A stretch of 35,750 nucleotides of DNA from a virus. Shown piece after piece: positions 1,832 through 35,750 of the stretch; the stretch's first letter is position 1; every line of letters begins with the position of its first letter. The notes below the pieces were generated by a model that saw only the letters and a list, made by a program, of their open reading frames with translations, was not told where the DNA came from and made no database searches. The stretch is taken from positions 1 through 35,750 of the IMG/VR virus record IMGVR_UViG_3300046170_000185, one strand, 5' to 3'. Both the position numbers and the translations under genes were made by a program.

Positions 1832-3089
1832 TAATCAAATACTAGCAGTCCTAAGGCGTGGTGATGAGTATGTTATTGAAGCAATCAATGCAGGACTTAG
1901 TGTTGATTGGTTTGAAAGCTACGTTGCTAAGCGTTGCTGGACTTACCTTGAAACCTTGGTGGAAGCCAAGCGATGGGACGACCTAAGCGGTAATGTAGTA
2001 CTCGCTCCAATGTTCAAAGAGATTGATGGCTCAATCGATGCGATGAGTGAGGACATACCGGACTGGGGTTTCACAGTTGAGGAGTTCATTGAGGGCTTAT
2101 CACAGTTCAGAGAGGAGCATATCAGAAAGAGAACCTTATCCATCCTGCAGGAGGGTACGAAGTCTCTGTTTGATGGTGAGTTTCCGGACGATGTATGTGC
2201 ATCAGTAGCTAACAAGCTAAGCAACACGGAGACAGTTGCTACTGAGAGATCGCTAAGAGATTTGGCGAGCGATGCATTGAAGTTAGATACAGCCGTGGCT
2301 TCCGGTGAGCGTGTTGGTCTTCCCTTTCCATGGGAGGACTTTCAGCAACGCACATTCGGCATACCCCTTAAGGCTGTCACACCGCTCGCTGGACGCGATG
2401 GCAAGGGTAAGTCTAGGTTAGCTATGTATCTGTCCCACTTCTGGCTTCAGGAGGGAATACCGGGGCTTTACATGCCATTCGAGGATGGCGCTGAAAGATA
2501 CATGACTGCAATGGCGGCTACTCATGGTAAGTATGACACGTTTGATCTACGCAGAAACAACGTGCCTGAGTCTTTCCTGATGAGGCATACGGTAGCAATG
2601 GATGAGCTGACTAAGTTACCTCTGTCCGTTGACGACCAAGCCACAACGGTTGAGTCAATCATTGCCAAGATCAGCAAGGCTAAGCAGAAGCACAACATCG
2701 AATGGGTAGTAGTTGATGGATTCAAGGACATCGTTCGTAGTGTGGGTGAGAATGCTGTAATGCAGGACAACCACATGTTCGCCTCGCTGAAGCGTGCGGC
2801 ACACAAGTATGACGTAGCAATCCTTAGTATTCATCACTTAACAAAGCTTGAGGATGAGAGCTGGATTAGCAAGCGTGACATCAAGGGTTCGGGTGAGTTA
2901 ACACAATCATCCCGCATGACACTAGTATATCAAGATACGGTATGCGCTCCTGTTATGGATGTGTACGGTACACAAGCAGAGGATGCCATTGTACTGGACT
3001 GTCAGAAAGCTTCCTATGGTGACAAGGGTTATGTAGTATTGAAGCCTGACTTACAACGAGGATCGTTTTCGGAGTTAAGACCATGCTGA
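1821..3089 (+). CDS. DnaB-like replicative helicase / RecA-fold ATPase
   Basis: Likely the replicative DNA helicase that unwinds the phage origin. The 422-residue protein has an N-terminal helical region (about 1-150) and a RecA-type core. The Walker A motif GRDGKGKS is at residues 191-198, PFEDG is near 219-223, the Walker B strand WVVVDG is at 295-300, and SIHHLTK at 336-342 corresponds to the DnaB H-motif region. The core resembles phage and bacterial DnaB, although the N-terminal domain is not recognisably DnaB. It starts inside the initiator gene and ends overlapping the next small gene. With no DNA polymerase gene in the genome, this pair probably recruits host polymerase (inference). 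Confidence 0.85.
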   Translation: MVTDNQILAVLRRGDEYVIEAINAGLSVDWFESYVAKRCWTYLETLVEAKRWDDLSGNVVLAPMFKEIDGSIDAMSEDIPDWGFTVEEFIEGLSQFREEHIRKRTLSILQEGTKSLFDGEFPDDVCASVANKLSNTETVATERSLRDLASDALKLDTAVASGERVGLPFPWEDFQQRTFGIPLKAVTPLAGRDGKGKSRLAMYLSHFWLQEGIPGLYMPFEDGAERYMTAMAATHGKYDTFDLRRNNVPESFLMRHTVAMDELTKLPLSVDDQATTVESIIAKISKAKQKHNIEWVVVDGFKDIVRSVGENAVMQDNHMFASLKRAAHKYDVAILSIHHLTKLEDESWISKRDIKGSGELTQSSRMTLVYQDTVCAPVMDVYGTQAEDAIVLDCQKASYGDKGYVVLKPDLQRGSFSELRPC

Positions 3090-6407: not shown

Positions 6408-6489
6408 ATATGTTTATTAAATGCAAAAATTTAAACATATATCTTGACCAATACCCTTACAGGTAGTAGTTATATATCTAACTCGTTCA

Positions 6490-6547
6490 TCCCCTAGGGA
6501 CGGAAGTAGCATATTGTGTGTGAAGGAACGCTGACGAGGACATACTT
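6490..6547 (+). promoter_or_regulatory. GGA-rich leader of the 53-residue gene (possible CsrA/RsmA target)
   Basis: The 58 bases before the ATG at 6548 carry four GGA motifs (GGGACGGAAG, AAGGAAC, GAGGACA); the last is also the ribosome binding site. GGA motifs spaced along a leader with one covering the Shine-Dalgarno are the hallmark of CsrA/RsmA control. A weak TTGACC at 6444 may belong to its promoter, but no good -10 element sits at normal spacing. Confidence 0.35.
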
Positions 6548-7973: not shown

Positions 7974-10781
7974 TTACGTCAGTCCATTAATGTTAACTGT
8001 TTGTATGTCGTTACTAACCATACTATTTAATTGCAGTTTACCATGGTTTTGGTCTGACGGGTAAACATGGTTCCTTACTCCATTAGAATAAGAATCACTA
8101 GTACCATCTCCCATTAACCATACGTAGGTTGACTGATAAGCATTTGCAGGTGTGTAGTAACTCGTTGCAAATCTTTCAGCAGGTTTCCTGAATAATCCAT
8201 TAGGGTTTCCTGTAGACAATCTAACCTTATAGTCATCAATCCACTTAACAGGGTCAGTAATCATCATTTTTGCTTGGTCAGCATCAGGCATAAATCCCGC
8301 TGGAAGCTGGGCACTAGTATAGTTACCTTCACTAATTAATGTGGTAACAACCATACTAGCTATCTTACCTCTATAGCTATATCCAGTTCCTCTACCGCCA
8401 ATGGTAAAGTCTCCTGCAACAGTTCTATCCATTCTTTGACCTGTAGAAGTCCAATTAGCTGCAATTGATAAGTTACTGCTTATTGAAGCAAATGAATCAG
8501 CACTACTCATAATTCTAATATCAAAGCAATCAGCCAAGTTAGAAGCAGAAGCATTGTTGCCTCCTAATCTTACGCCATTGTGAGCTATAGAAATTCCGTA
8601 CCAAGTAGATGAGGATATATTCGAAGCAATTCTACACATATTGTATCCAACTCCTTCTCTACCCCAACCTAGATTAACATGTCCTGTAGCACCTACATTT
8701 ACAAAGATGTTATCACTACCACTTAAAGAACCTTCGCCTTGATTCCATATCATTTGATTGCCATTGTAGCCATCTGATTTGAATACAACTGCTGTTGCCC
8801 AAGGTCTAGAAGATGTGTTGTTAGACGTCTCACCTTGTGAACGAGTGCCTAAATCAACCTGATTAGCTAACCCATTCATTTGTAATGGCTGTACATACAT
8901 CGAACTAGAAACTTGTTTAGAGTGTTCATTAGAGCCACTAAAGTCTAGAGCCTTAGTCCAAGGAGTATCGTTAGTACTAACAGGAGCTACGTCTGTAGCT
9001 GTTACAGTCATCGTACCTACAGAACTACCGTAAGAGTTTGCACGCGTTACTGTAATTGTATACACAGTGTCCGCACCAACATCAGTCAATGTACCCTGAA
9101 CCAAGCTATAGCCATCGTAGACAAGTCCTGATCCACTAGGAGAGATGCTAACAGAACTAGACCAAGTAGCACCAGCGGGTGTCACCTGAATGTTTACAGC
9201 TGTACCTTCCTCTTGAGTTAGGCTAGTTGCACTAAACTGAGGGGGAGTTAAGTCAGCGTTAGTTAGTGATGTAATCTCTGTATAAGTAGCAGCCTGTCCT
9301 AATGTTAGGTCTGCGGCGGGTGCGCTTGTATCAGTCATTGTTCCGCCATTGTCTGGCATATACCATGTTGTAGCAGTGGGGTCATCTGTATATGTATGAG
9401 TATGACTTGAGCCACTACCCGTTCCACCATTCTGACTGTCATAGTAATTAGCTTCTTCCTCTGTAGCAAACAGTGGGTACTCAAAGTTTCCATCAGGAGA
9501 CTCGATGTAACGGAACTGCATTACAGGGGCTTCAGCTTCCAGCAGGTGAACCTTGGGTGCTGATGCCACTCTAGCAGAAGGGCTTGCTGACTTAACACCC
9601 AGATGGAATGATGCACCTTCCTGAACTATATAGCTACTACGTGCATGCAAAATCCAAGTAGTACCATCATCCTGCAATGTAGAGATAGCAATGTATCCAT
9701 TCTCATCAATACCTACCCGCATCTTTACAGGGTTACCAGCAAGCCACTCGTCCTGAGACTCCCAGTTACTCCAGCCAGAACCGTAGATGAAACCAGTAGA
9801 AGCTCCGTAGTTAGTCCACGAACCATTGGGGGTTGGGTGAAACCAGTGTGAAAACTGGAAGCCATAGTGTGCGCTGTTGCTTATGGCAAATGTACTAGGG
9901 TCAGCATAGGTAGCACTCCCTGCATAGAAGCCACCACTATAGGAAGAATCTGTATGAATAAGACCAAACCCAATCTGCCCCTCACCACGAATATCAAACG
10001 TGAAGTATTCACCCGCTTGGTCGATTGTCTCAGTTGACTTAAGACCAGCTAGGTTGCCGCTAGAACTGTTAGCGAAAACATCATCACCAATAGGATCAAC
10101 GGCAGTGTTACCAATGATAGTATAACCAGCGTCAACGCCACTTACGTCAGCAACCATGGTGCTATGCGGGTCAGCAATAACAACAGCCTCAAATGCACCA
10201 ACAGTGAACAGCTCGTTAAGTGTGTTAACAACATCGTTTAATCCGCCTGATACAGTATTGCTATCAACGCTAACACGTCCATGCTCCAAGCCCTCGAAGT
10301 GCTTGTGAGTAGAAGCGCTTTCGGAGCCTGTAGGAATACCACCACCAATAGCGTGGATGTGAATAGTCCCATCTGCATCAGCAACAGCCTTAATAGTGTT
10401 TACACCGAAAGCTGATCCATTGTCCATGATGATAGATGTAGATGTGTCGTCCAGTCGGAAGTCCACATTGATACCAGTCAAAGATGTACCTGAGTCAGAA
10501 AGTCCCAGTACATTAGCGTTGGCGTTAATATAATCAACAGTGGCTTGGGCATCAGCAAAAGCATTGCCGTCTTTGTCTAAGAACTCTGTATAATTGATAG
10601 AGTAAAACTCATACTGAGTATTCTCGTCGTTAGCTGTACGGATGTCGTTAATAACATCTACAGCATTAGAGTCTAGGCTATTGATTTGAGCGGACAAACA
10701 AGCGTTAAAGTATGCGGGGTTAGAAGACCCAACAAAGTTAATGCAGTTTCCTTCAGCGTTTCTTACAATTCTCATTCCCAT
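7974..10781 (-). CDS. Large tail fibre / receptor-binding protein, 935 residues
   Basis: A very large Ser/Thr/Gly-rich beta protein at the end of the structural group. The N-terminal 250 residues (begins MGMRIVRNAEGNCINFVGSS) look virion-attached. A middle domain near 260-430 has the jelly-roll character of a concanavalin-like fold (FHLGVKSASPSARVAS). An Ig-like repeat lies near 510-600 (FSATSLTQEEGTAVNIQVTP). The C-terminal 300 residues again look like a LamG-type domain (FDIRIMSSADSFASISSNLS). This composition fits a receptor-binding fibre that decides host range. No chaperone or autoproteolysis motif recognised. Confidence 0.75.
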   Translation of the reverse strand: MGMRIVRNAEGNCINFVGSSNPAYFNACLSAQINSLDSNAVDVINDIRTANDENTQYEFYSINYTEFLDKDGNAFADAQATVDYINANANVLGLSDSGTSLTGINVDFRLDDTSTSIIMDNGSAFGVNTIKAVADADGTIHIHAIGGGIPTGSESASTHKHFEGLEHGRVSVDSNTVSGGLNDVVNTLNELFTVGAFEAVVIADPHSTMVADVSGVDAGYTIIGNTAVDPIGDDVFANSSSGNLAGLKSTETIDQAGEYFTFDIRGEGQIGFGLIHTDSSYSGGFYAGSATYADPSTFAISNSAHYGFQFSHWFHPTPNGSWTNYGASTGFIYGSGWSNWESQDEWLAGNPVKMRVGIDENGYIAISTLQDDGTTWILHARSSYIVQEGASFHLGVKSASPSARVASAPKVHLLEAEAPVMQFRYIESPDGNFEYPLFATEEEANYYDSQNGGTGSGSSHTHTYTDDPTATTWYMPDNGGTMTDTSAPAADLTLGQAATYTEITSLTNADLTPPQFSATSLTQEEGTAVNIQVTPAGATWSSSVSISPSGSGLVYDGYSLVQGTLTDVGADTVYTITVTRANSYGSSVGTMTVTATDVAPVSTNDTPWTKALDFSGSNEHSKQVSSSMYVQPLQMNGLANQVDLGTRSQGETSNNTSSRPWATAVVFKSDGYNGNQMIWNQGEGSLSGSDNIFVNVGATGHVNLGWGREGVGYNMCRIASNISSSTWYGISIAHNGVRLGGNNASASNLADCFDIRIMSSADSFASISSNLSIAANWTSTGQRMDRTVAGDFTIGGRGTGYSYRGKIASMVVTTLISEGNYTSAQLPAGFMPDADQAKMMITDPVKWIDDYKVRLSTGNPNGLFRKPAERFATSYYTPANAYQSTYVWLMGDGTSDSYSNGVRNHVYPSDQNHGKLQLNSMVSNDIQTVNINGLT

Positions 10782-10786
10782 AATAA

Positions 10787-11485
10787 TTACCTCAGTACCG
10801 TTGTTAACATTGATAGTGGTTGTACGATGATCTGGTTATCAGACTTAATAGCAGGGTATGCTAATGCGTTGATATCCTCGTCAGATGCGATATAAGCCGA
10901 AATCTCTGCACGCACTAAGTAGGTTTGTCCTACTGTACCAGTGCCGTAGAAGATAGGGCTTCCTGTTAGAGAGAAGCTAAACGTAACATTGTTGCCAGAG
11001 TCCCGGTTCTTGTACCATAATGCCGGCTCAATAGTGGTGTTGGCTACTTGTGGTATTACGTTGAAGTCAAAGCGTACGCGAACCTGATCGCCTACATTAA
11101 GATCGTTAAGCTTGATGCGTCCAGATGTAACAATATTGCTACCATCTTCGTATGTGTCAGAATCGTTGTGCGTAAAATCATACAATCCTGTAACATCATG
11201 CGGCAGATAAGAGCCACCAAAGATACCCTTGTCGGTATGGTCTGCTGGTGCAGGGCTAGCCCAGTAGGGCGAGTCCACTGACAGGTGGACATCTCTATCT
11301 AGCGAGAATGTTTTAAAGATACCTGCATCTACGTCTGCCTGTGTAATACTAATACCAGTACCCGGCTCCCATGCATAGCTATTTGATAACGGCTTGCCAG
11401 CAAATCCGCCAGTAAACTCCATACCAAACTCAGCATTGTCTAGGATAGCCTGTACCTGTGCTGTAGTTAAGTCTAATTGTCCCAT
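10787..11485 (-). CDS. Tail-fibre-associated protein, 232 residues
   Basis: Begins MGQLDLTTAQVQAILDN, an N-terminal segment common in phage fibre modules, followed by a beta-rich body (RVRFDFNVIPQVANTTIEPA). It ends five bases upstream of the large fibre gene start and starts right after the 118-residue gene. It probably forms part of the fibre assembly or carries a receptor-binding module. I do not recognise a named family. Confidence 0.6.
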   Translation of the reverse strand: MGQLDLTTAQVQAILDNAEFGMEFTGGFAGKPLSNSYAWEPGTGISITQADVDAGIFKTFSLDRDVHLSVDSPYWASPAPADHTDKGIFGGSYLPHDVTGLYDFTHNDSDTYEDGSNIVTSGRIKLNDLNVGDQVRVRFDFNVIPQVANTTIEPALWYKNRDSGNNVTFSFSLTGSPIFYGTGTVGQTYLVRAEISAYIASDEDINALAYPAIKSDNQIIVQPLSMLTTVLR

Positions 11486-11842
11486 TTATTCAATCTCCAT
11501 TAATTGCTGTTTATCAGCTATAGTTAGCCACTCATCTTTTTCTATTCCGTTCATCTGAAGGAAGTTGTCCCACTGCTCCATATCATCTTCGGTTACTTTA
11601 GTCTTACGTGTATCACCCTGTTTCTTACAAAGACTTATAAGGATATCATCCCCAATAAGCTCATGTGTTAATACAAACTGGTGCAGTTCTATGTGATTAC
11701 CCTCATCGTCATACCCGCCGGGGTCATCGTGAGGAGCATCAACAGCCAGTATGTAGGGCGATGTTAGCACCCATGCATAGTAAGCCCCATTGCTGTGTTT
11801 AAACTTTTGATATGGGCTTGGTGTTATTTCTATTTCTTCCAT
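11486..11842 (-). CDS. Hypothetical protein of the fibre group, 118 residues
   Basis: An acidic soluble protein (begins MEEIEITPSPYQKFKHSNG; has DAPHDDPGGYDDEGNH). No signal or membrane segment. It is wedged between two fibre genes with almost no intergenic space, so it could be a fibre assembly chaperone or a small virion component; this is inference. Family not recognised. Confidence 0.55.
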   Translation of the reverse strand: MEEIEITPSPYQKFKHSNGAYYAWVLTSPYILAVDAPHDDPGGYDDEGNHIELHQFVLTHELIGDDILISLCKKQGDTRKTKVTEDDMEQWDNFLQMNGIEKDEWLTIADKQQLMEIE

Positions 11843-11850
11843 AATATCTC

Positions 11851-13842
11851 CTAAGCTGCAAAGATTACAAAACCACTTCCATCTAATATAAAATCTCCAT
11901 CGACATCACGCAGTGCGCCAGATGTGCCACCGAAGTAACGCTCATTCTTTAGAACATCACTAGGCAGGAAGTCTTTGTCTAGGTCGTACTGTGCAATACA
12001 GATAACCTTACCATCTACAACCTTAACCCATATGCGGTCATATCCGTTACGATTGTTAGCGTGGTCTACCAACTGATCGAATGTCTTTTCATCCTGAGTA
12101 GAACCGTCAGAACTCCAGAAGCTAGTAGTGCCTGATGTAAACACAGAGTCAGTCTGCACTAGGTCTGCTTCAGCACCGTTATCCAGTGCTGGAGTGTTGC
12201 TGATAGTTAGGTTACCTGTGGCGTAGTCTGCACTCACAAGCGAACCTGCTGTGTCTGCTACACGAGTACCCCAGAAGGTATCAAGCCCACCAGAACCAAC
12301 CGTAACTGTGCCGCTACCAATCAATCCATTAACACTAGAGATTGTAGATGTTCCGATACCGCTAGACATTGTAAATGTTAAAACTCCATCCACCTTTATG
12401 TTATATGCTGTACCTGCACTAGATGTGATTTCACCTGTTCCTGCAGTTAGGGTAGCTGTTCCATCGTGTGTAATAACACTACTACCTGTAATTCCGGTAG
12501 CTGTTAACTTATCAGCCACACCATCAAAGGTAGCAACCTGTGTAGTCTTGATGTTAAGTGCAGGGATGTTATTAGTAACCAATGTTCCTGTACCAGAAAC
12601 AAGACTATTGGAAACTGTATCGTAAAACTTACCCTCTTGAGCCGCAGTATAATCAGCAACTAGTGTTCCATCTTTAACTAGACTAAAACTGTGTATGTCG
12701 CAATTAGCATTTACACCCCCAGCATTATTACTAAATAAACGTAAATCACCAGTTTGACTTAAACCTGTTAAATCAATAGATGTTGTCGCTCCGTTTAATG
12801 TAGCGGTAGTAGATGTAATTTCAAGGTCTACAAATTTATCTTGTATGCTAGATGCAGGTGCTAAACTGTGGTCACCATTGGGTGTAAAAATTCTCATTTG
12901 AGTGCCACTTTGATAAAACAAAAACCTTTCAGTAGCTGTTGCACTATAAAAACCTAATAAATAATCTTGAGTATCGCCTCGCCATAAGAATCTAATTTTT
13001 AAAACAATGTCTGATGAGTCTAGTCTAATACCTGTGTCTACCGAACCATCATAAGCAGTGCTTGTAACAGCAGGTGTTAACCCATATTCGTGGTTCCAAG
13101 ACTCAATGCCGTCTAACGTAGAATGAGTAGCACCAACTATTGCTCCATTTGCTCCATTACCACTTACATCATAAGCTACAGAACCAGAGCCTTCTGCCAA
13201 TGGTAAGTGAAGGTTTGCACCAACTGAAGAGTTAGTTACAGATACATTAGATATTTTACCATTCCAAACTAATCCAGTCTGCCTAGCACCGATCTGAAAC
13301 CCATGTGTGCCTCCGTGTGCGCCAGAACTTCTTGAGAAAGAGTCTGTTTGAGTCGTACCATCTGTTAAATTTTCTAAAACAAAACTACTAGTGCTACCAT
13401 CTGCATTATATGTTATTGTACTTCTATATACTTTGTTTAGCTCTATAGCAAAAATTTCAGTACCAACAGCATTTACTTTTAAAAAATTATTTTGAGTAAA
13501 CAATCTATAGGATGCTGAACCACAAGAATGAATCACTTGAGTTCCTGCTGATTCCTGCTTAAAAGTTGCTGTAATAACACAGGAGCCAAAGTTGTTCGAG
13601 GCATTTGTTGTTAAATCCACACCGCCCGCAGAGTTAATTTCTACTCTATCTCCGCTACCATCAAAGTCGAGGCAGTTAACATTAGCTAATTCAAGATCAG
13701 TTGTGTTATCCAACTCATCAAGCATTGCTCCATCTTCTGATCCGCGCTTAAAAAGCTGAAGCAGGTCGGCGGCAGATGCAATAGAGCGCCCGCCACCACC
13801 TGTCCCAAACTTAGCAAAGCGACTTCCAAAGCCGCCAAACAT
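11851..13842 (-). CDS. Tail fibre with LamG/concanavalin-like domains, 663 residues
   Basis: The N-terminus (MFGGFGSRFAKFGTGGGG, then ASAADLLQLFKRG) looks like a virion attachment leader. Residues 55-215 fit a LamG jelly roll (NCLDFDGSGDRVEI ... GFQIGARQTGLVWNGKISNV), with a linker HLPLAEGSGSVAYDVSGNG typical of such fibres. A second LamG-like unit covers about 255-400 and a Thr/Gly-rich beta region follows. LamG-type domains bind glycans, so a surface-recognition role is likely. It overlaps the preceding gene by one base. Confidence 0.75.
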   Translation of the reverse strand: MFGGFGSRFAKFGTGGGGRSIASAADLLQLFKRGSEDGAMLDELDNTTDLELANVNCLDFDGSGDRVEINSAGGVDLTTNASNNFGSCVITATFKQESAGTQVIHSCGSASYRLFTQNNFLKVNAVGTEIFAIELNKVYRSTITYNADGSTSSFVLENLTDGTTQTDSFSRSSGAHGGTHGFQIGARQTGLVWNGKISNVSVTNSSVGANLHLPLAEGSGSVAYDVSGNGANGAIVGATHSTLDGIESWNHEYGLTPAVTSTAYDGSVDTGIRLDSSDIVLKIRFLWRGDTQDYLLGFYSATATERFLFYQSGTQMRIFTPNGDHSLAPASSIQDKFVDLEITSTTATLNGATTSIDLTGLSQTGDLRLFSNNAGGVNANCDIHSFSLVKDGTLVADYTAAQEGKFYDTVSNSLVSGTGTLVTNNIPALNIKTTQVATFDGVADKLTATGITGSSVITHDGTATLTAGTGEITSSAGTAYNIKVDGVLTFTMSSGIGTSTISSVNGLIGSGTVTVGSGGLDTFWGTRVADTAGSLVSADYATGNLTISNTPALDNGAEADLVQTDSVFTSGTTSFWSSDGSTQDEKTFDQLVDHANNRNGYDRIWVKVVDGKVICIAQYDLDKDFLPSDVLKNERYFGGTSGALRDVDGDFILDGSGFVIFAA

Positions 13843-14153
13843 TAGATTTCTCCTAAAGGAACGATATTGAGTACAGCAGTAGAACCAATATGTTCACCAG
13901 CCCGCAGGATAGTAGTATAGCTACCACCAGCAGGAAGCAAGAAGCCTTCACTGTCAGCGGGGGTTGGAGCAGATGCTTCGATCTTAATCCATGCGTCAGC
14001 TACTGTAGGCGTTAGTACAACTGCCCGGTCTGTTGCTGTGTTTTCATATGTTCCGCCTGCCGATACGTTTGTGTATAAGTCTGTGCGTAAGTGTGCGAAT
14101 TGAAGTTTGTTGTTGTAACGATCTTCACCAGCTTTAATGTTTCCTAATCCCAT
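13842..14153 (-). CDS. Small beta-rich virion protein, 103 residues
   Basis: Begins MGLGNIKAGEDRYNNKLQFAHLRTD and continues with alternating beta-strand pattern (TDRAVVLTPTVADAWIKIEA). It has the feel of a small fibre or decoration protein. The start is preceded by the leader AAAGGTTAGGTAAGG, which is shared with the upstream fibre adaptor gene. Function is inferred from position only. Confidence 0.55.
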   Translation of the reverse strand: MGLGNIKAGEDRYNNKLQFAHLRTDLYTNVSAGGTYENTATDRAVVLTPTVADAWIKIEASAPTPADSEGFLLPAGGSYTTILRAGEHIGSTAVLNIVPLGEI

Positions 14154-14188
14154 TACCTTACCTAACCTTTCGTTGTATTATTAATATT

Positions 14189-15472
14189 TTATTTATAAAC
14201 CATTGCACCGCGAATTACATAGCTTGTGTCCGCAGAGCCACCGGATGTAAAACCGATTAAAGAAAAACTTGTCTGACCAGCATTGATTGGAATGGTTACA
14301 GTTGTGTCTGTTCCATCTGAATAGCTACCTGATGAACCAACACCCTTAGCCAGCGTAGTGCTTCCTCCAAATGGTAGGGTTGCCGCTAACTCTGCATAAC
14401 CATTTCCGCCTGCATGTACCCGAACAACAATCCCTGTAATATCTGCTGTCGTTAATCCAGACCCTGCAAACTCTGATATATTAAATGTGTGCGTATAATT
14501 AGCTGTTGTGCTAGCCTGACTAAGAGAACGCGTCCCACCTGTTAAGGTAATAAATTTCGGTCTTAGTGGAGAAACACTGTTATCAACGTATGCTTTAATG
14601 GATTCTTGAGTAGCACCCTTTTGATTTGAAGGGGTAGACATTGTGTCGTCGTCTATAAGGATGTCACCAACTAACGCTCTTTCTGTTACCTCGCCTGTGG
14701 CTGTGTTACCTAGTACGCTGTTAGATGTAGTGATGTCCTGAATCTTAGCATAAGTAACATTGTCATCTTTAATTTTAACTGTTTCAACAGCATCAGTAGC
14801 TAGCTTATCAACTGATATACCTGCGTCTTTTACTGCGATATTGCCACCGCTAAACTCTGTGCTAGTGCTATCCACCTTGGCTGATAACTGACCTGATACA
14901 AGGCTAAGCCCCTCGTTAGAGTCAACAGAGAATCCGCCTTCCTGTGCGATATCTAATTCAGTAACATTGCCGCTAGCGTCAAATCCCAGAGCCTTGTTGG
15001 CTCTAGCAGTTGATGATCCTACGGTATATGTAACATTGTTATCGGTTACCGGAAACTCTACAGTACGCGTGAACAAATCGTTTTGCTGTTGGTTCTGGGC
15101 AACCACTCTGTCAAGTGCTTTGTTTAAAGCTGAAGGATCAATGGTAGAACCTTCCTGCAGATCGTACTCCTGTGTATAGGCAACATCACGCTCAATAACA
15201 ATAATGTCGTTTAGTGAGGCTCCAGCACCCAGCGTGACGGTGCATCCGTTGCCGGGGTCAGATGTTACCACCTTAAACTGTCCAGCAACTGGTGATTCGT
15301 TGGCTACTAGGCTTGTCAGCGTACCGTCTGTTTCCTCTTGGTACACTTTGATATCACCATACTTTTCTCCGCTAACTGTTGTAGCATCAAAGAAGGGGAG
15401 TGTAAACGGGAAGTCCGTCTGTCCTGCTAGTGCAGAATACGTTTGTCTATTTAATTCGCTTGATAATGCCAT
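14189..15472 (-). CDS. T7 gp17-type tail fibre adaptor, 427 residues
   Basis: The N-terminal 150 residues match the T7 tail fibre N-terminal family: the SALAGQTDFPFTLPFFD start, IKVYQEETDG, ASLNDIIVIERDVAYTQEYD, and then DPSALNKALDRVVAQNQQQ. That domain attaches the fibre to the tail tube. The following region (IKDDNVTYAKIQDITTSNSV) is a repeating trimeric shaft pattern, and the C-terminal 120 residues form a short beta tip. At 427 residues it is shorter than T7 gp17 (about 550) and probably serves as an adaptor for the fibres encoded downstream. A strong promoter lies just ahead. Confidence 0.85.
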   Translation of the reverse strand: MALSSELNRQTYSALAGQTDFPFTLPFFDATTVSGEKYGDIKVYQEETDGTLTSLVANESPVAGQFKVVTSDPGNGCTVTLGAGASLNDIIVIERDVAYTQEYDLQEGSTIDPSALNKALDRVVAQNQQQNDLFTRTVEFPVTDNNVTYTVGSSTARANKALGFDASGNVTELDIAQEGGFSVDSNEGLSLVSGQLSAKVDSTSTEFSGGNIAVKDAGISVDKLATDAVETVKIKDDNVTYAKIQDITTSNSVLGNTATGEVTERALVGDILIDDDTMSTPSNQKGATQESIKAYVDNSVSPLRPKFITLTGGTRSLSQASTTANYTHTFNISEFAGSGLTTADITGIVVRVHAGGNGYAELAATLPFGGSTTLAKGVGSSGSYSDGTDTTVTIPINAGQTSFSLIGFTSGGSADTSYVIRGAMVYK

Positions 15473-15507
15473 ACCTAACCTAACCTTTCACCGTAAAGAT
15501 GTTATTG

Positions 15508-15536
15508 TTTATATATATAATTAATAAGATTGTCAA
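15508..15536 (-). promoter_or_regulatory. Sigma70-type promoter for the tail fibre group
   Basis: On the minus strand TTGACA (15531-15536), a 17-base spacer and TATAAA (15508-15513), about 36 bases before the fibre adaptor start. The -35 element overlaps the last bases of the internal virion protein gene. It shares TTGACAATCTT with the capsid promoter. Confidence 0.75.
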
Positions 15537-16345
15537 TCAATATTGTATTTTTTTGCTTTTTCGTTTTTCTTTGTAAAGAATAACTCTGATAGATTGCCAC
15601 TGTCTGCCGCATTGTATGCACGCTTGACACCAGTTACTGGGACACCAATACCAGCCAGTAGCATATCCATATCACGCAAGCCAATGTCATCACGCTTATC
15701 TTTATCAGCGAGCTTTTGACCTAGTTTAACACCCTCTTTTGCTACGCCTATTGCCGGTATCTCGTAGTCATAACCAGACATTTCCTGCATTGCAAATCCA
15801 CCAAGCCATCCGCTTCCGCTTAGTACTGTGTTAGCAAGATAGTTTTTAAACTCCTCTTCTGTCTCAGGGAACTTGCCATTTGTTGCAGCCCAGATACCCA
15901 TACCACCAAGCATTGTGGAGAATACGAGTGCCTCTAGTGACTCTCTGGATTCTGCATCCTTAAAGTTCCTAGCAAGCTTTGGCGCTCTTGCGTATATACC
16001 GTTCATAATTTTATTGAGCTGGTTTGAGAACATCATTACAGTTCTGGCAGACTCACCCTTCTGGTAGAAGCTTGTCAGCTCTGCTGGTTTGTTGGTAGGC
16101 TGTGTTCTAGCTGTGCTGTTTCTAGCCAGTCTCAACGCCTCATTGTGCGTCTTGTACTCAGATCGCGCCTTGTCGTACACAGCATTAAAGCCAGTAGCTC
16201 TTACCACTTTGTCGATCATTACAATGTGCTTTAGTCCTACCTCACCCACAAGGTTGACCATCTTGTCATAAGCGGCAGGGTCATTAGCTTTGAAGTCTGC
16301 TATAACACTATCAACGGTGGTCGATCTAATGCTTTCGTCCAGCAT
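15533..16345 (-). CDS. Internal virion protein (gp16-like), C-terminal part in third frame
   Basis: 270 residues from MLDESIRSTTVDSV to the stop. The open frame extends further upstream (AIEKNANGTPKLYNK) and clearly continues the preceding reading frame after a +1 shift near 16405-16425. It contains helical segments and a membrane-like stretch (VFSTMLGGMGIWAATNG). In T7 the corresponding large internal protein is ejected and forms part of the DNA channel across the envelope. The ATG at 16345 has no good ribosome site, so it is probably not an independent gene. The role is inferred from gene order. Confidence 0.6.
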   Translation of the reverse strand: MLDESIRSTTVDSVIADFKANDPAAYDKMVNLVGEVGLKHIVMIDKVVRATGFNAVYDKARSEYKTHNEALRLARNSTARTQPTNKPAELTSFYQKGESARTVMMFSNQLNKIMNGIYARAPKLARNFKDAESRESLEALVFSTMLGGMGIWAATNGKFPETEEEFKNYLANTVLSGSGWLGGFAMQEMSGYDYEIPAIGVAKEGVKLGQKLADKDKRDDIGLRDMDMLLAGIGVPVTGVKRAYNAADSGNLSELFFTKKNEKAKKYNID

Positions 16346-16400
16346 CTCAGCGCGACGAATAGACTTGTTGTACAGCTTTGGAGTGCCATTAGCATTTTTC

Positions 16401-18092
16401 TCAATAGCCCACGTTGTTGCCTGTTCTCATAAAGCCCTGACCAAGTCTAGCCCCTCCCTCTCCTATTCCACCTAAGTCCTGCATGTAGTAGAACAAAGAT
16501 GGTATCTGCTTGATGCCGGTAGTTTGGTTAAATGCCAAGAATCCTATGCTTAAATTTTTACGAATTCTTTTTAAGATTGCATCTGTCTGACCATCTGATC
16601 TGCTCATTTTCTGCGGATTAGCCACACGTTCCTGATACATCTCCAGCTCTCTAACCATTGATTCACCATGTACCTTCTTGATTTGTGAGCCTAGGTTCTT
16701 TCGTATGCCATTGATAACCTGTACATTTTCTGCCTGATGTATGTAGTGTTCCATCTTGTTAACCATACCCAACCATTCCCCAACTAGGTCTAGCCGTACC
16801 TCTGCTCCCGACTGAACACGCTTCTTCATCTGTGCTTTTGATGGAGCCGCACTAGAAAAATCACCTGTACCCTCCAGCATGTTTTTAATATCATCAATAC
16901 CCTTAACAAACTCTACGTCTTTTCTGTTTAGGGGTGAGTAGTAGTCTATATCTTCTAGTGCTTTGCCTTCTGTCTTGAAGTACACATCAGCTATACGTCC
17001 GCGAGTTTTTGCGTAGTCAGCAAGGACGTGATCTGCCGCAGCTTTGTATGCCGGGTTGTCTTCTATGAATTTAATTGCAGAACGCATGGCATCTTTGTCG
17101 CCTTTGAAGTTACCTCTCAATACAGCCTTTGCTCCGCCTCTTTGCTTGGACTTAGCGTATACACCCATCAGCTCTGATATAGTAAGCTTTCCGTATCCAG
17201 CGTGGAAGCTAATCTTTTGAGCCAGCTTTCTAGGGTTAAGCTTTAATCTCTTCATTGTGGAATCAAATGCTTCCTTGCGAAAACGCTCCATACGGGACGC
17301 ATCTGCATCACCAGCTCTTTGGTTATCAATAAGAGCCTTGTGGGCTACTCCATCGTATTTACCTTTACCTCCATCAAGGGTGTCAGCAAGCTCGTCCATT
17401 CTTACAAACTCCCTTAGCACAGCCTGAGCCTTCTTAGCTACCCCTTTAAAGCCACGAGGATCGCGTGTAACGGCTTCTTTCTTCTTAGGTGGCTTCTGAC
17501 CCGCCTTAAGGTTGTTTGCGATCTCCGTGTAAATTTGACGCCTTCTCGCCTCTCCTTCCTTTACAGCACCTTCTTTGGCTTTGTTTTGTATCTGCTGTGC
17601 CTTCTTACGTTGGGCTACAGTTTGCGTGCCTTCTGGCGTAAATACAGTCTCTGCCGCCTTGGTAGGAGCTAGGTCTGCATCTGTAATATCTTTCTTGCCT
17701 AGCTCAGCATACGGATTCTCCAGACCTTTCTTTACAAACTCAGTTTGTTCTTTTCTAGTCTTTATTTTCCTTTTAGGTTTCTGTGCGGCTATGAACTCAA
17801 ACCCACCGATGAGAGGTATCTTCTCTGAAACCTTAACTGATGACTCAACACGGCGTGTCATTGAACCGAAGACAATATCTGCACCGTAGTTCTGTATAGC
17901 CTCTGAAATCAGGAATTCACGCTCAACAGACTCAATCTCCTCCTGCGTTGCTCCCTTGCCTGCAACCGTAATAGCCATGCTCTTAGCTCTAGCCTGTGCA
18001 TCCTCCCATCTAAAGGCTGTTGTCAGTGCGGCGTTAGCTGTAATATCTTTAACGATAGCCTTGAAGTTTGTCTTAGACAAAGATGAGAACAC
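16401..18092 (-). CDS. Internal virion protein (gp16-like), middle part in second frame
   Basis: 563 residues of mostly helical, Lys/Ala/Glu-rich sequence, beginning FSSLSKTNFKAIVKD. The first codon is GTG within the coding end of the upstream frame, with no convincing ribosome site, and the upstream frame runs into it after a +1 shift. It ends prematurely at TGA after FMRTGNNVGY, where the next frame resumes. Length, composition and position after two other internal proteins fit T7 gp16. Either the sequence has an extra base here or the gene uses recoding. Confidence 0.6.
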   Translation of the reverse strand: MFSSLSKTNFKAIVKDITANAALTTAFRWEDAQARAKSMAITVAGKGATQEEIESVEREFLISEAIQNYGADIVFGSMTRRVESSVKVSEKIPLIGGFEFIAAQKPKRKIKTRKEQTEFVKKGLENPYAELGKKDITDADLAPTKAAETVFTPEGTQTVAQRKKAQQIQNKAKEGAVKEGEARRRQIYTEIANNLKAGQKPPKKKEAVTRDPRGFKGVAKKAQAVLREFVRMDELADTLDGGKGKYDGVAHKALIDNQRAGDADASRMERFRKEAFDSTMKRLKLNPRKLAQKISFHAGYGKLTISELMGVYAKSKQRGGAKAVLRGNFKGDKDAMRSAIKFIEDNPAYKAAADHVLADYAKTRGRIADVYFKTEGKALEDIDYYSPLNRKDVEFVKGIDDIKNMLEGTGDFSSAAPSKAQMKKRVQSGAEVRLDLVGEWLGMVNKMEHYIHQAENVQVINGIRKNLGSQIKKVHGESMVRELEMYQERVANPQKMSRSDGQTDAILKRIRKNLSIGFLAFNQTTGIKQIPSLFYYMQDLGGIGEGGARLGQGFMRTGNNVGY

Positions 18093-32586: not shown

Positions 32587-33417
32587 AAAGATTTTAACTT
32601 TACCTCAAGCTCCATATTTGCGTTTTAAAGCCATTTAACCTGTCGAGGTAGGTCATCATATAGGTTATACCCCTAAATGCTCTTAGAATGCATCCTCATG
32701 CGTTTAAGAGGGTATTCTGGATAATGCTTACCCCCCTAGGTTCCTCTAGGTTCAAATATTTAATATCTTGATGGGGGTCTAAATACTTATTTCCCTAGCT
32801 TTCCTGTTCCGGCTGTACCCCCTCAAAAACCCCCCCCCCTTCGAAAGACTGGCAAACCATACCGGTAGACTTGCGAACCATACCGGTACAGATTCCGGTC
32901 TGGAAATCGGTCAGACCCTGACGAAAGGATTGCCCGTTCGAGGTGGCTCTGTTGCGGTACACCCCTCTTTGCCATAACCTTGGCACCACTGTGGCATCCC
33001 TTTGCCATACCTTTGCCATACCTTGGCATACCTTTAGCACGCGTGCGGGTGCGTTGAACCCCTCTTCCAATTGGTGTCGGGGAGTAAACCTCTCTCTTAT
33101 GCTTTGGTTTTGTTTGCTCTCTATGTGTCTTTGTCTCTCTCTCTATATGTTTCTTTATATGTTGTGCCTATGGAATGCCTTGACGAGGTATCATTTGCCA
33201 TCGCGCAGCTTTTACATATTTTTACACATTTTTACCTCAAATCGTCCCTGATTTTGCGCTGTCAAAAAATTTATTTTCGTCATTTTAGTCAATGTTTGCA
33301 GGGGTTTCGTGATGTGGGTGAATTTTTTTGTTGTTTTATTTTTGCTGCATGGCATAACTGTACTCGTTCGCAGGGAACAGACAACCCATCAGACGGACAG
33401 CAAGACAGCAAGCGGCG
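32587..33417. promoter_or_regulatory. Divergent control region with tandem short repeats
   Basis: An 830-base stretch without a credible gene. It holds two copies of ACCATACCGGTA 21 bases apart (32856-32888) plus a CCGGT nearby; a run of TTTGCCATACC units at 33001-33032 with variants at 32968-33000; half-iterons CTAGGTTC at 32738-32757; and an inverted repeat CTCTTA/TAAGAG near 32680-32708. A long pyrimidine tract lies at 33115-33160. Probably operators for divergent transcription. I could not identify a convincing rightward promoter. Confidence 0.45.
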
Positions 33418-33588
33418 ATGATGAAAGACCGCAACGAGATTAAGAAGAGCCTAACGGAACTTGCTCACCAACGTCAGGACAGACGTAACCAGTCAAGCCG
33501 AATCCACACGGACAATCAGTGGACGGCTAGCGTCAGACCCCTCAATCGAGGCAACTCGGCTAGCTGCGAATCAGCAGGCGGGATTTAA
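33418..33588 (+). CDS. Doubtful small frame, 56 residues
   Basis: Begins with a double ATG (MMKDRNEIKKSLTELAHQ) and continues as a basic, then Ser/Asn-rich sequence. There is no clear ribosome site, and its 3' third overlaps a set of strong hairpins. It could be a real leader peptide of the rightward transcript or just an open stretch above structured RNA. Confidence 0.25.
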   Translation: MMKDRNEIKKSLTELAHQRQDRRNQSSRIHTDNQWTASVRPLNRGNSASCESAGGI

Positions 33589-33591
33589 TCC
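33526..33591 (+). ncRNA. Structured RNA segment ahead of the first hammerhead
   Basis: Consecutive helices: GCTAGC (33526-33531) with GCTAGC (33559-33564) around CCTC-AATC-GAGG (33540-33551); CTGC-GAATCA-GCAG (33564-33577); GGAT-TTA-ATCC (33581-33591). The repeat GTGGACGGCT occurs just before and just after the block. No family recognised. Confidence 0.4.
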
Positions 33592-33613
33592 AAGTGGACG
33601 GCTGATCGGAAAA

Positions 33614-33665
33614 TCGAAACCCTAAGGGTCTGGCGGGATGGTGACCGTCACTGATGAGACAGCCA
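33614..33665 (+). ncRNA. Type II hammerhead ribozyme, copy 1
   Basis: All core elements are present. GAAA at 33616-33619 leads into stem III (ACCC with GGGT, 33619-33629), the cleavage triplet GTC ends at 33630, stem I is TGGCGG with CCGTCA (33631-33650) with an eight-base loop, and CTGATGA is at 33651-33657. The open stem II is short (G33658-C33615, A33659-T33614). Predicted cut after C33630. Stem sequences differ from copies 2 and 3 while pairing is kept. Confidence 0.8.
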
Positions 33666-33690
33666 ATTTAAATTAAAAAGGAGAAAGCAA

Positions 33691-33906
33691 ATGACAAAAG
33701 CAAACATGATCGAAACTATATTCAACAGAACTGAGCTGTTACTGGAAAAAGCTGAGCGTAAAGAAAAGGTCTACGGGAACGATAGCCATGAACATAATGA
33801 AGCTAGGAAAGAATTGACTGCCGCTATATGCCTTATTTACGACCTAGAATTACGCAATGCTTATGTAGATTGGCAAGTCCAACAAATCAGGAAAGCAAAA
33901 GCATAA
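33691..33906 (+). CDS. Hypothetical protein, 71 residues
   Basis: First well-supported gene of the rightward transcript, with the ribosome site AAAAGGAG after the first hammerhead. The product is helical and basic (begins MTKANMIETIFNRTELLLEK; has RKEKVYGNDSHEHNEARKEL). Two long amphipathic helices suggest a small DNA- or protein-binding factor. Hammerheads on both sides would release its message as a separate RNA. Family not recognised. Confidence 0.7.
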   Translation: MTKANMIETIFNRTELLLEKAERKEKVYGNDSHEHNEARKELTAAICLIYDLELRNAYVDWQVQQIRKAKA

Positions 33907-33968
33907 ATCGAAACGGGGTTCGCCCCGTCTGTCTAGCGTGGTGGCTAGGCACTGATGAGAAAGCCAAT
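33905..33968 (+). ncRNA. Type II hammerhead ribozyme, copy 2
   Basis: GAAA at 33910-33913 leads into stem III CGGGG-TTCG-CCCCG closed by A33913-T33928. The cleavage triplet GTC ends at 33929. Stem I is TGTCTAG (33930-33936) with CTAGGCA (33945-33951) and loop CGTGGTGG; CTGATGA lies at 33952-33958. Stem II is the short open helix. It starts directly at the stop of the preceding gene. Predicted cut after C33929. Confidence 0.88.
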
Positions 33969-33993
33969 TTAAATTAAACAGGAGACAAGCAAA

Positions 33994-34248
33994 ATGAATA
34001 ACGAAACTTATAACGGTTGGGCAAATTATGCAACTTGGAAAGTAAACCTTGAATTGTTGGACGGCGTAACGTCGGAAGACTTATTCGGCGGAGAATGCGA
34101 GCCGGAGCAGATAAAAGACTATATCTGGGAAATGGTAACAGACGGATACCCCGATGCTAAACCAGATGATTTTGCTATGAGATGTATGTTTGATATGTTG
34201 CACGATGTTGATTGGTACGAAATAGCAGAGTGTTTAAACGAGGATTAA
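33994..34248 (+). CDS. Small acidic protein with NGWxNYATW motif, 84 residues
   Basis: Begins MNNETYNGWANYATWKVNLE. The NGW-NYATW-VNLE pattern is one I recall in small phage and plasmid proteins of unknown function (a DUF7249-like family from memory, name uncertain). The rest is strongly acidic (DLFGGECEPEQIKDYIWEMV). Ribosome site CAGGAG after the second hammerhead. An acidic DNA-mimic type role is conceivable but unsupported. Confidence 0.7.
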   Translation: MNNETYNGWANYATWKVNLELLDGVTSEDLFGGECEPEQIKDYIWEMVTDGYPDAKPDDFAMRCMFDMLHDVDWYEIAECLNED

Positions 34249-34249
34249 C

Positions 34250-34310
34250 TCGAAACGGGGTTTTCCCCGTCTGTCTAGTGTGGTGGCTAGGCACTGATGA
34301 GAAAGCCAAT
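34250..34310 (+). ncRNA. Type II hammerhead ribozyme, copy 3
   Basis: GAAA at 34252-34255, stem III CGGGG-TTTT-CCCCG, cleavage triplet GTC ending at 34271, stem I TGTCTAG (34272-34278) with CTAGGCA (34287-34293), loop TGTGGTGG, and CTGATGA at 34294-34300. It is almost identical to copy 2; the base changes fall in the loops of stems I and III, plus one deletion in the AT-rich tail. Predicted cut after C34271. Confidence 0.88.
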
Positions 34311-34335
34311 TTAATTAAACGAAAGGCAAATTTAT

Positions 34336-34515
34336 ATGAATAGACTGAAATTATTACATATAAAATCAGAGAAACAACACAGAGAGTTATCTGTTAAAAT
34401 CGAGAAGGCAATATCAAGATCAAGGCAGGCGATGGTTCGCCAGTACGGTCTGGAAAAGGCATTGGAAATTGAAGAAAAAGTAAACAAAAACTTAAATGAA
34501 AGGTACACAAAATGA
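34336..34515 (+). CDS. Hypothetical basic helical protein, 59 residues
   Basis: Begins MNRLKLLHIKSEKQHRELSV and continues as one basic helix (EKAISRSRQAMVRQYGLEKA). AAAGG lies nine bases ahead of the ATG, after the third hammerhead. The stop overlaps the next ATG (ATGA). Likely a small nucleic-acid-binding or host-takeover protein; this is inference. Confidence 0.6.
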   Translation: MNRLKLLHIKSEKQHRELSVKIEKAISRSRQAMVRQYGLEKALEIEEKVNKNLNERYTK

Positions 34516-35282: not shown

Positions 35283-35401
35283 TGACATATGAAGAGATTG
35301 AGCAGGAACTTACTAACGAGATGTTGAACACTGAGGCTACTCCGATTCTTACATGGGAGCAGATAGCAGAAACATTAAACGGGACACTAAGCAATGATTA
35401 G
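35282..35401 (+). CDS. Acidic miniprotein, 39 residues
   Basis: Begins MTYEEIEQELTNEMLNTEAT; overlaps the previous stop (TAATG) and the start of the HIRAN gene by eight bases. Acidic, with no membrane span. Tight overlap on both sides favours a real gene; unknown function. Confidence 0.5.
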   Translation: MTYEEIEQELTNEMLNTEATPILTWEQIAETLNGTLSND

Positions 35402-35750
35402 TTTTAAGGTTGCAGGATTAATGAGTCAGGGCGAGGAGGTAACATCGCTACGCCCTACCGGTTACGTACTACTAAAGCCAGAACCGGAAAACGAATACGA
35501 TGCGGGAGCAGTTGCGGTTTATTATTCCGATGTAAAGATAGGATATGTTCCTAAGAAGGGAGGCTATCAAGAGCAGGCGGTCAAAGCAATGAAGGCTAAA
35601 ATCGTCTCTTGTTCGTATGTTCATGCCTACAATGATAACAAACCTCAATGGAACGATGAAGGTAATGGCGAGCTACGCTCTATTCGCCTCGAGATTGAGG
35701 CACAAGAGGAGAACGCAAGCAAAGTAATAGGTGGACGTTACCTGAGAGTG
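35394..35750 (+). CDS. N-terminal HIRAN domain of a nuclease fusion (continues at base 1)
   Basis: 119 residues are visible and the frame is open to the last base. Residues 1-65 show the HIRAN pattern: a VAGLMSQGEEV strand, GYVLLKPEPENEYDAGAVAV and then VKIGYVPKKGG. HIRAN domains bind DNA 3' ends or damaged DNA and occur fused to helicases and nucleases (established knowledge). The last residues (GGRYLRV) join in frame with the start of the window (TSFLKHFDPY), the usual beginning of this nuclease class. The complete gene would encode about 313 residues, with the HIRAN part perhaps directing the nuclease to DNA ends. Confidence 0.8.
   Translation, partial: MISFKVAGLMSQGEEVTSLRPTGYVLLKPEPENEYDAGAVAVYYSDVKIGYVPKKGGYQEQAVKAMKAKIVSCSYVHAYNDNKPQWNDEGNGELRSIRLEIEAQEENASKVIGGRYLRV

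Follow-up and report, generated by a model that had tools for sequence, protein, structure and literature searches.

Type II hammerhead ribozymes predicted behind a structured leader RNA and between small genes of a tailed phage

The window analysed here is the whole IMG/VR virus record IMGVR_UViG_3300046170_000185, 35,750 bases in length, and encodes the podovirus-like gene set of a small tailed phage. The minus strand carries the major head protein, tail proteins, and a head–tail adaptor with 27–29% identity to those of Pelagibacter phages such as HTVC010P, while the plus strand encodes replication initiation and helicase functions near the left terminus of the record. The record seems to be a linear cut of a genome whose right end continues into its left end. 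A rightward segment begins near 33.3 kb and contains an apparently non-coding leader, three ribozymes, and three small genes (Table 1). The match of small gene B to PF23907 (E 4.7e-5) is below that family's own cut-off. The genes that follow small gene C overlap or abut one another, leaving no further gap in that stretch.

Neither the right arm nor the first 25 kb of the window has a DNA match in 50,697 records of named phages. At the left end (1–585) we observed a PHROG exonuclease-like frame of 179 aa, whose counterpart in the relative G001 is longer (316 aa), and at the right end (35397–35750) a HIRAN-domain frame that runs off the record. A glutamine riboswitch (RF01739) is present on the plus strand at 6482–6534, where the left-hand run of plus-strand genes is nearly over, and in two relatives (L133, 14461–14513; L319, 10084–10177, minus strand). 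Glutamine riboswitches in phages are already known (PMC9004378).

Table 1. Coordinates of the elements of the rightward segment, and of a ribozyme array in another record
Feature	Position	Strand	Description
Structured leader RNA, apparently non-coding	~33360..33611	+	Covariation, 84% DNA identity with G001; ~250 nt
Type II hammerhead ribozyme 1	33612..33668	+	RF02276, 37.9 bits; predicted cut 33630/33631
Small gene A	33691..33906	+	ORF, 71 aa, AGGAG site upstream; weak match to phrog_26256
Type II hammerhead ribozyme 2	33906..33969	+	RF02276, 57.5 bits; predicted cut 33929/33930
Small gene B	33994..34248	+	84 aa, DUF7249-like
Type II hammerhead ribozyme 3	34248..34311	+	RF02276, 55.5 bits; predicted cut 34271/34272
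Small gene C	34336..34515	+	59 aa; from ORF list and sequence
24-ribozyme array	G032 = record of L046 (IMGVR_UViG_3300017605_000570), 9932-17520; L134		One strand-consistent array

The whole window was searched against all of Rfam with cmscan. Three matches to RF02276 (Hammerhead_II) exceeded the gathering score of 37 bits, at the three sites for which the original prediction had proposed type II hammerheads, and no other RF02276 match occurs in the record. All three are full length (model 1–66), with E values of 1.7e-9, 5.7e-9, and 2.2e-4 for 35.75 kb against all Rfam; ribozyme 1 clears the gathering score by just 0.9 bits. Read directly, the catalytic core (CUGAUGA, GAAA, and UH before the cut) is intact in each copy. 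In ribozymes 1, 2, and 3, the CGAAA core element starts at 33615, 33909, and 34251 and the CTGATGAG element at 33651, 33952, and 34294. Stems I and III are loop-closed and stem II is open, which is the type II permutation, as had been described. The lengths of stems III/I are 4/6, 6/8, and 6/8 bp, and every pair is standard, in agreement with the earlier observation that copy 1 has different stems that still pair. After the GTC-dependent cuts, the downstream products would begin at 33631, 33930, and 34272, the very positions first proposed. Copies 2 and 3 had been said to differ in their loops only; this needs correction, as one change also makes a U–G of the C–G pair at the top of stem I. In the window copies, TGGT of loop I can form a pseudoknot of four pairs with GCCA located 3′ of stem II. 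With plain MFE folding of copies 1 and 3 alone, a non-ribozyme fold is better by 1.6 and 0.7 kcal/mol than stems III and I, a comparison that scored these two stems without stem II tertiary contacts or the pseudoknot.

The CGAAA of ribozyme 2 begins 2 nt past the stop codon of small gene A, and that of ribozyme 3 begins 2 nt past the stop codon of small gene B. The placement of the ribozymes in gaps between genes holds for copies 2 and 3 and not for copy 1, which follows the leader. This leader lies directly upstream of ribozyme 1 in three phages (the window, G001, and G080), while the G060–G063 group has other sequence after the leader and no ribozyme 1. Over the leader, seven predicted pairs show double-sided changes, compared with zero to two when the partners are slid. 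The 3′ domain of the leader is found in seven related contigs with five distinct sequences, in which five pairs show double-sided changes; one helix reads CCUC/GAGG, CUUC/GAAG, or CCAC/GUGG in different phages. Since single-sequence folding was not significant (z −1.2 and −1.5), it is covariation that supports the leader structure. A coding role was rejected, as the 56-aa frame at 33418–33588 matches G001 over its first 20 residues only. We also rejected assignment to a known RNA family: apart from ribozyme 1, the region has no Rfam match, permissive threshold included. A scan of the collection did not find the leader outside its group of related phages; an exact-pattern match in L143 does not align and was attributed to chance. 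We likewise rejected a sigma-70 promoter ahead of the leader, the scan having found fewer sites than in shuffles. On this comparative evidence, we regard the leader as a candidate new RNA family. Most simply, ribozyme 1 would cut it off the coding message and release it as a separate RNA.

To assess pairing among related ribozymes, we compared eight 64-nt copies, all distinct, taken from the window and its relatives G001, G080, G061, and G056, five phages in total. All pairs of stems I, II, and III are standard in every copy. Over the set, 98.8% of cells are paired, and double-sided changes occur at six pairs, compared with zero or one when partners are slid by one to three columns. One stem I pair is C–G, U–G, or U–A depending on the copy. 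The loop I pseudoknot is paired in 93.8% of cells, its fourth pair being lost in G001 and G056. The stems of ribozyme 1 differ from those of the other copies; its equivalent in G080, at the same place after the leader, shows compensatory stem I changes from G–C to A–U and from G–U to G–C. In the gap before one gene of G080 and G061, the ribozyme is kept though its stem I has been swapped for another that also pairs.

In all these related phages, a linker of the form AATTTAAATTAAA...AGGAG precedes many small genes, and what stands before the linker varies. It is a type II ribozyme in the window, G001, G056, G061, and G080. Three successive gaps of G080 (L319 ~1987–2034, ~2403–2451, and ~2742–2790) contain what appear to be type I hammerheads, with the layout CCTAA-CTGATGA-hairpin-GAAA-hairpin-TC-TTAGG. 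These three copies are nearly identical, have stop codons flush or nearly so, and share an operon with type II copies. The apparent type I assignment comes from reading the core and stems; the copies score below all Rfam cut-offs, the best being RAGATH-1-hammerhead at 31.0 against 56.3 bits, with HH9 at ~18 bits. Gaps of G001, G056, and G062 hold a stem-III-like hairpin without the core, 'ATC[GT]AAACGGGGAGGCAACTCCCCACAAT', which folds at −12.8 kcal/mol (z −5.4). We also observed a hairpin, CGGGGAGGCAACTCCCC, that recurs after stop codons (L124 1909–1940; L317 2391–2417, minus strand; L320 near 2530–2560, minus strand); it includes the first part of the 5′ end of the ribozyme and no core, resembling half a ribozyme as a gap element. 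One type II copy of G080 (L319 3027–3090) has CTGATAA for CTGATGA, a change that may weaken it; in G061 the core of this ribozyme is intact.

The G001 homologue of small gene B, a DUF7249 gene, has a linker remnant in front of it and no ribozyme, and the gene that follows copy 3 likewise lacks one there. Loss of the core beside retained genes, which the original prediction had taken to speak against its proposal, is therefore found for copies 2 and 3, while copy 1 is kept in three phages. The absence of copies 2 and 3 at the same genes in G001 indicates that they are dispensable in place, which does not mean that they are inactive. Taken together, the differences in gap elements between relatives imply turnover of the ribozymes relative to the genes they accompany. 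Most of the more distant relatives (portal 67–85% identical), nearly all of them fragments, gave no match.

A strict type II hammerhead sequence pattern matched at least 120 viral DNA stretches. RF02276 gave matches in 37 of the 41 longer records to which it was applied, and multiple matches in 12 of the 37. G032 contains 24 type II hammerheads in a row between 9.9 and 17.5 kb, G011 contains ten, and G047 eight. The G032 array has mostly one ribozyme per small gene, abutted by stop codon and ribosome site, with the latter coming straight after the pseudoknot strand. Its 24 ribozymes differ greatly in sequence and keep the same place beside the stop codons. By DNA match, no named relatives were found for the G032, G047, and G018 arrays, barring one 51-base match. 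Among 141 ribozymes, drawn from the listed matches to one sequence pattern with only identical flanks removed, a same-strand stop codon ends within 3 nt of CGAAAC in 46% and within 6 nt in 70%. The corresponding values are 3.3% and 5.7% at random positions, which include coding sequence; for opposite-strand stop codons they are 1% and 6%. A stop codon within 6 nt combined with a start codon and ribosome site within 45 nt was found for 45% of the 141 listed, compared with 1% at random; length (40 aa) was the criterion for calling ORFs.

Given these features, we consider it likely that the three type II hammerheads process the 5′ part of the rightward (early/replication) transcript into a leader and single-gene messages. 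This explanation is based on the Rfam matches, the intact cores, the covariation, the gap layout, and the recurrence in other phages. Ribozyme 1 would detach the ~250-nt structured leader from the part of the message that codes for protein. The other two ribozymes, each between a stop codon and the next ribosome site, would cut co-transcriptionally to yield single-gene messages. The upstream piece would then end in a GC stem III hairpin right after the stop codon, with a 2′,3′-cyclic phosphate, and the downstream piece would start with a 5′-OH, followed by the hairpin of stem I and then closely by the ribosome site. Hairpins and 5′-OH ends protect RNA from nucleases in general, and the consequence of such ends could be altered mRNA life or uncoupled translation. 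We infer cleavage in the window phage, the resulting ends, and their effects. The ability to cut upstream of the small genes, as originally predicted, is supported by the family match, the intact cores, the compensatory changes, and the published cleavage of similar arrays. That the arrangement processes phage mRNA is the published interpretation; it fits the gap layout. Overall, the original interpretation is partly supported, the stabilising role that it also proposed being a possibility. The relatives provide further evidence that selection maintains the arrangement and that its layout is strict. More tentatively, and as a possibility rather than an expectation, some phages may dice their messages gene by gene, with self-cleaving ribozymes flush to the stops in nearly every gap of the early operon, types I and II interchangeable, and the first ribozyme maturing a self-acting novel leader RNA.

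Several other explanations have to be weighed against processing of the transcript. That the matches are chance or decayed look-alikes is very improbable: the motif is short and copy 1 barely exceeds the Rfam cut-off, but there are three copies in 700 bases, with the E values given above, plus covariation. We regard as unlikely the view that the gap element works mainly through its hairpin, as a 3′ exonuclease barrier or translation separator, with self-cleavage secondary and often lost. The core-less hairpins of G001, G056, and G062 would fit it; however, the core of full copies is complete and their stem I changes are compensated, neither of which a plain hairpin would require, and the equivalent gaps of G080 are filled by apparent type I hammerheads.

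Less likely still, the ribozyme-plus-linker repeats could serve mainly as recombination joints for shuffling small gene cassettes, with cleavage tolerated and not useful. Near-identical ribozymes with the linker do stand between different genes in the five related phages, and the gene content between repeats differs. Passive repeats would decay, yet the stem I changes are compensated, and unrelated phages keep very different ribozymes of one array at the same position relative to stop codons. With a stop codon and a ribosome site so near on either side, part of the ribozyme would be covered by ribosomes that terminate or initiate. This raises a further alternative, to which we give a lower probability again: the ribozyme might fold only when no ribosome occupies the flush stop or adjacent ribosome site, so that cutting reports and adjusts translation. 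In most copies, 0–6 nt separate the stop codon from the 5′ stem II strand, and the ribosome site of G032 directly adjoins the pseudoknot strand, but compact phage genomes alone would place genes close together. Returning to transcript processing, relatives with and without a ribozyme before the same gene, the exchange of types, and the stop-flush layout provide natural contrasts for testing mRNA level and translation. Such contrasts bear on the role of phage hammerheads, a question standing since 2011.

Among known systems, RiboJ-type insulators combine a hammerhead and a hairpin to give a cut 5′ end immediately before the ribosome site, making expression independent of upstream sequence. Unlike the window ribozymes, they are engineered, single 5′ units and do not lie between natural genes. 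HHphage of the haloviruses HF1 and HF2, with a mapped 5′ end at its cut site, also sits at the head of an early polycistronic transcript, close before its first gene; it differs in belonging to haloviruses of archaea and in its variant core, single copy, and distance of 13 nt to the helicase gene that follows it (PMC3088659). Type II hammerheads clustered around single prophage genes, and the idea that they process transcripts, were described by Perreault et al. 2011 (PMC3088659), and the window array is of this published kind. Such arrays cleave in vitro and a triple array of A. tumefaciens cleaves in E. coli, while 4 of 18 consensus-fitting ribozymes were inactive in vitro (PMC3088659). A search of the open-licence literature did not find the stop-flush statistic, the type I/II exchange in equivalent gaps, arrays of 24, or the leader RNA, although earlier reports may exist. 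The window shares with the 2011 clusters the type II permutation, the loop I pseudoknot, and several copies flanking single small phage genes. It differs in that no ardA-like gene was identified in it and that a structured leader RNA absent from Rfam precedes copy 1. Beyond those clusters, our analysis quantifies the flush spacing to stop codons and places apparent type I and type II hammerheads in equivalent gaps of the relative G080.
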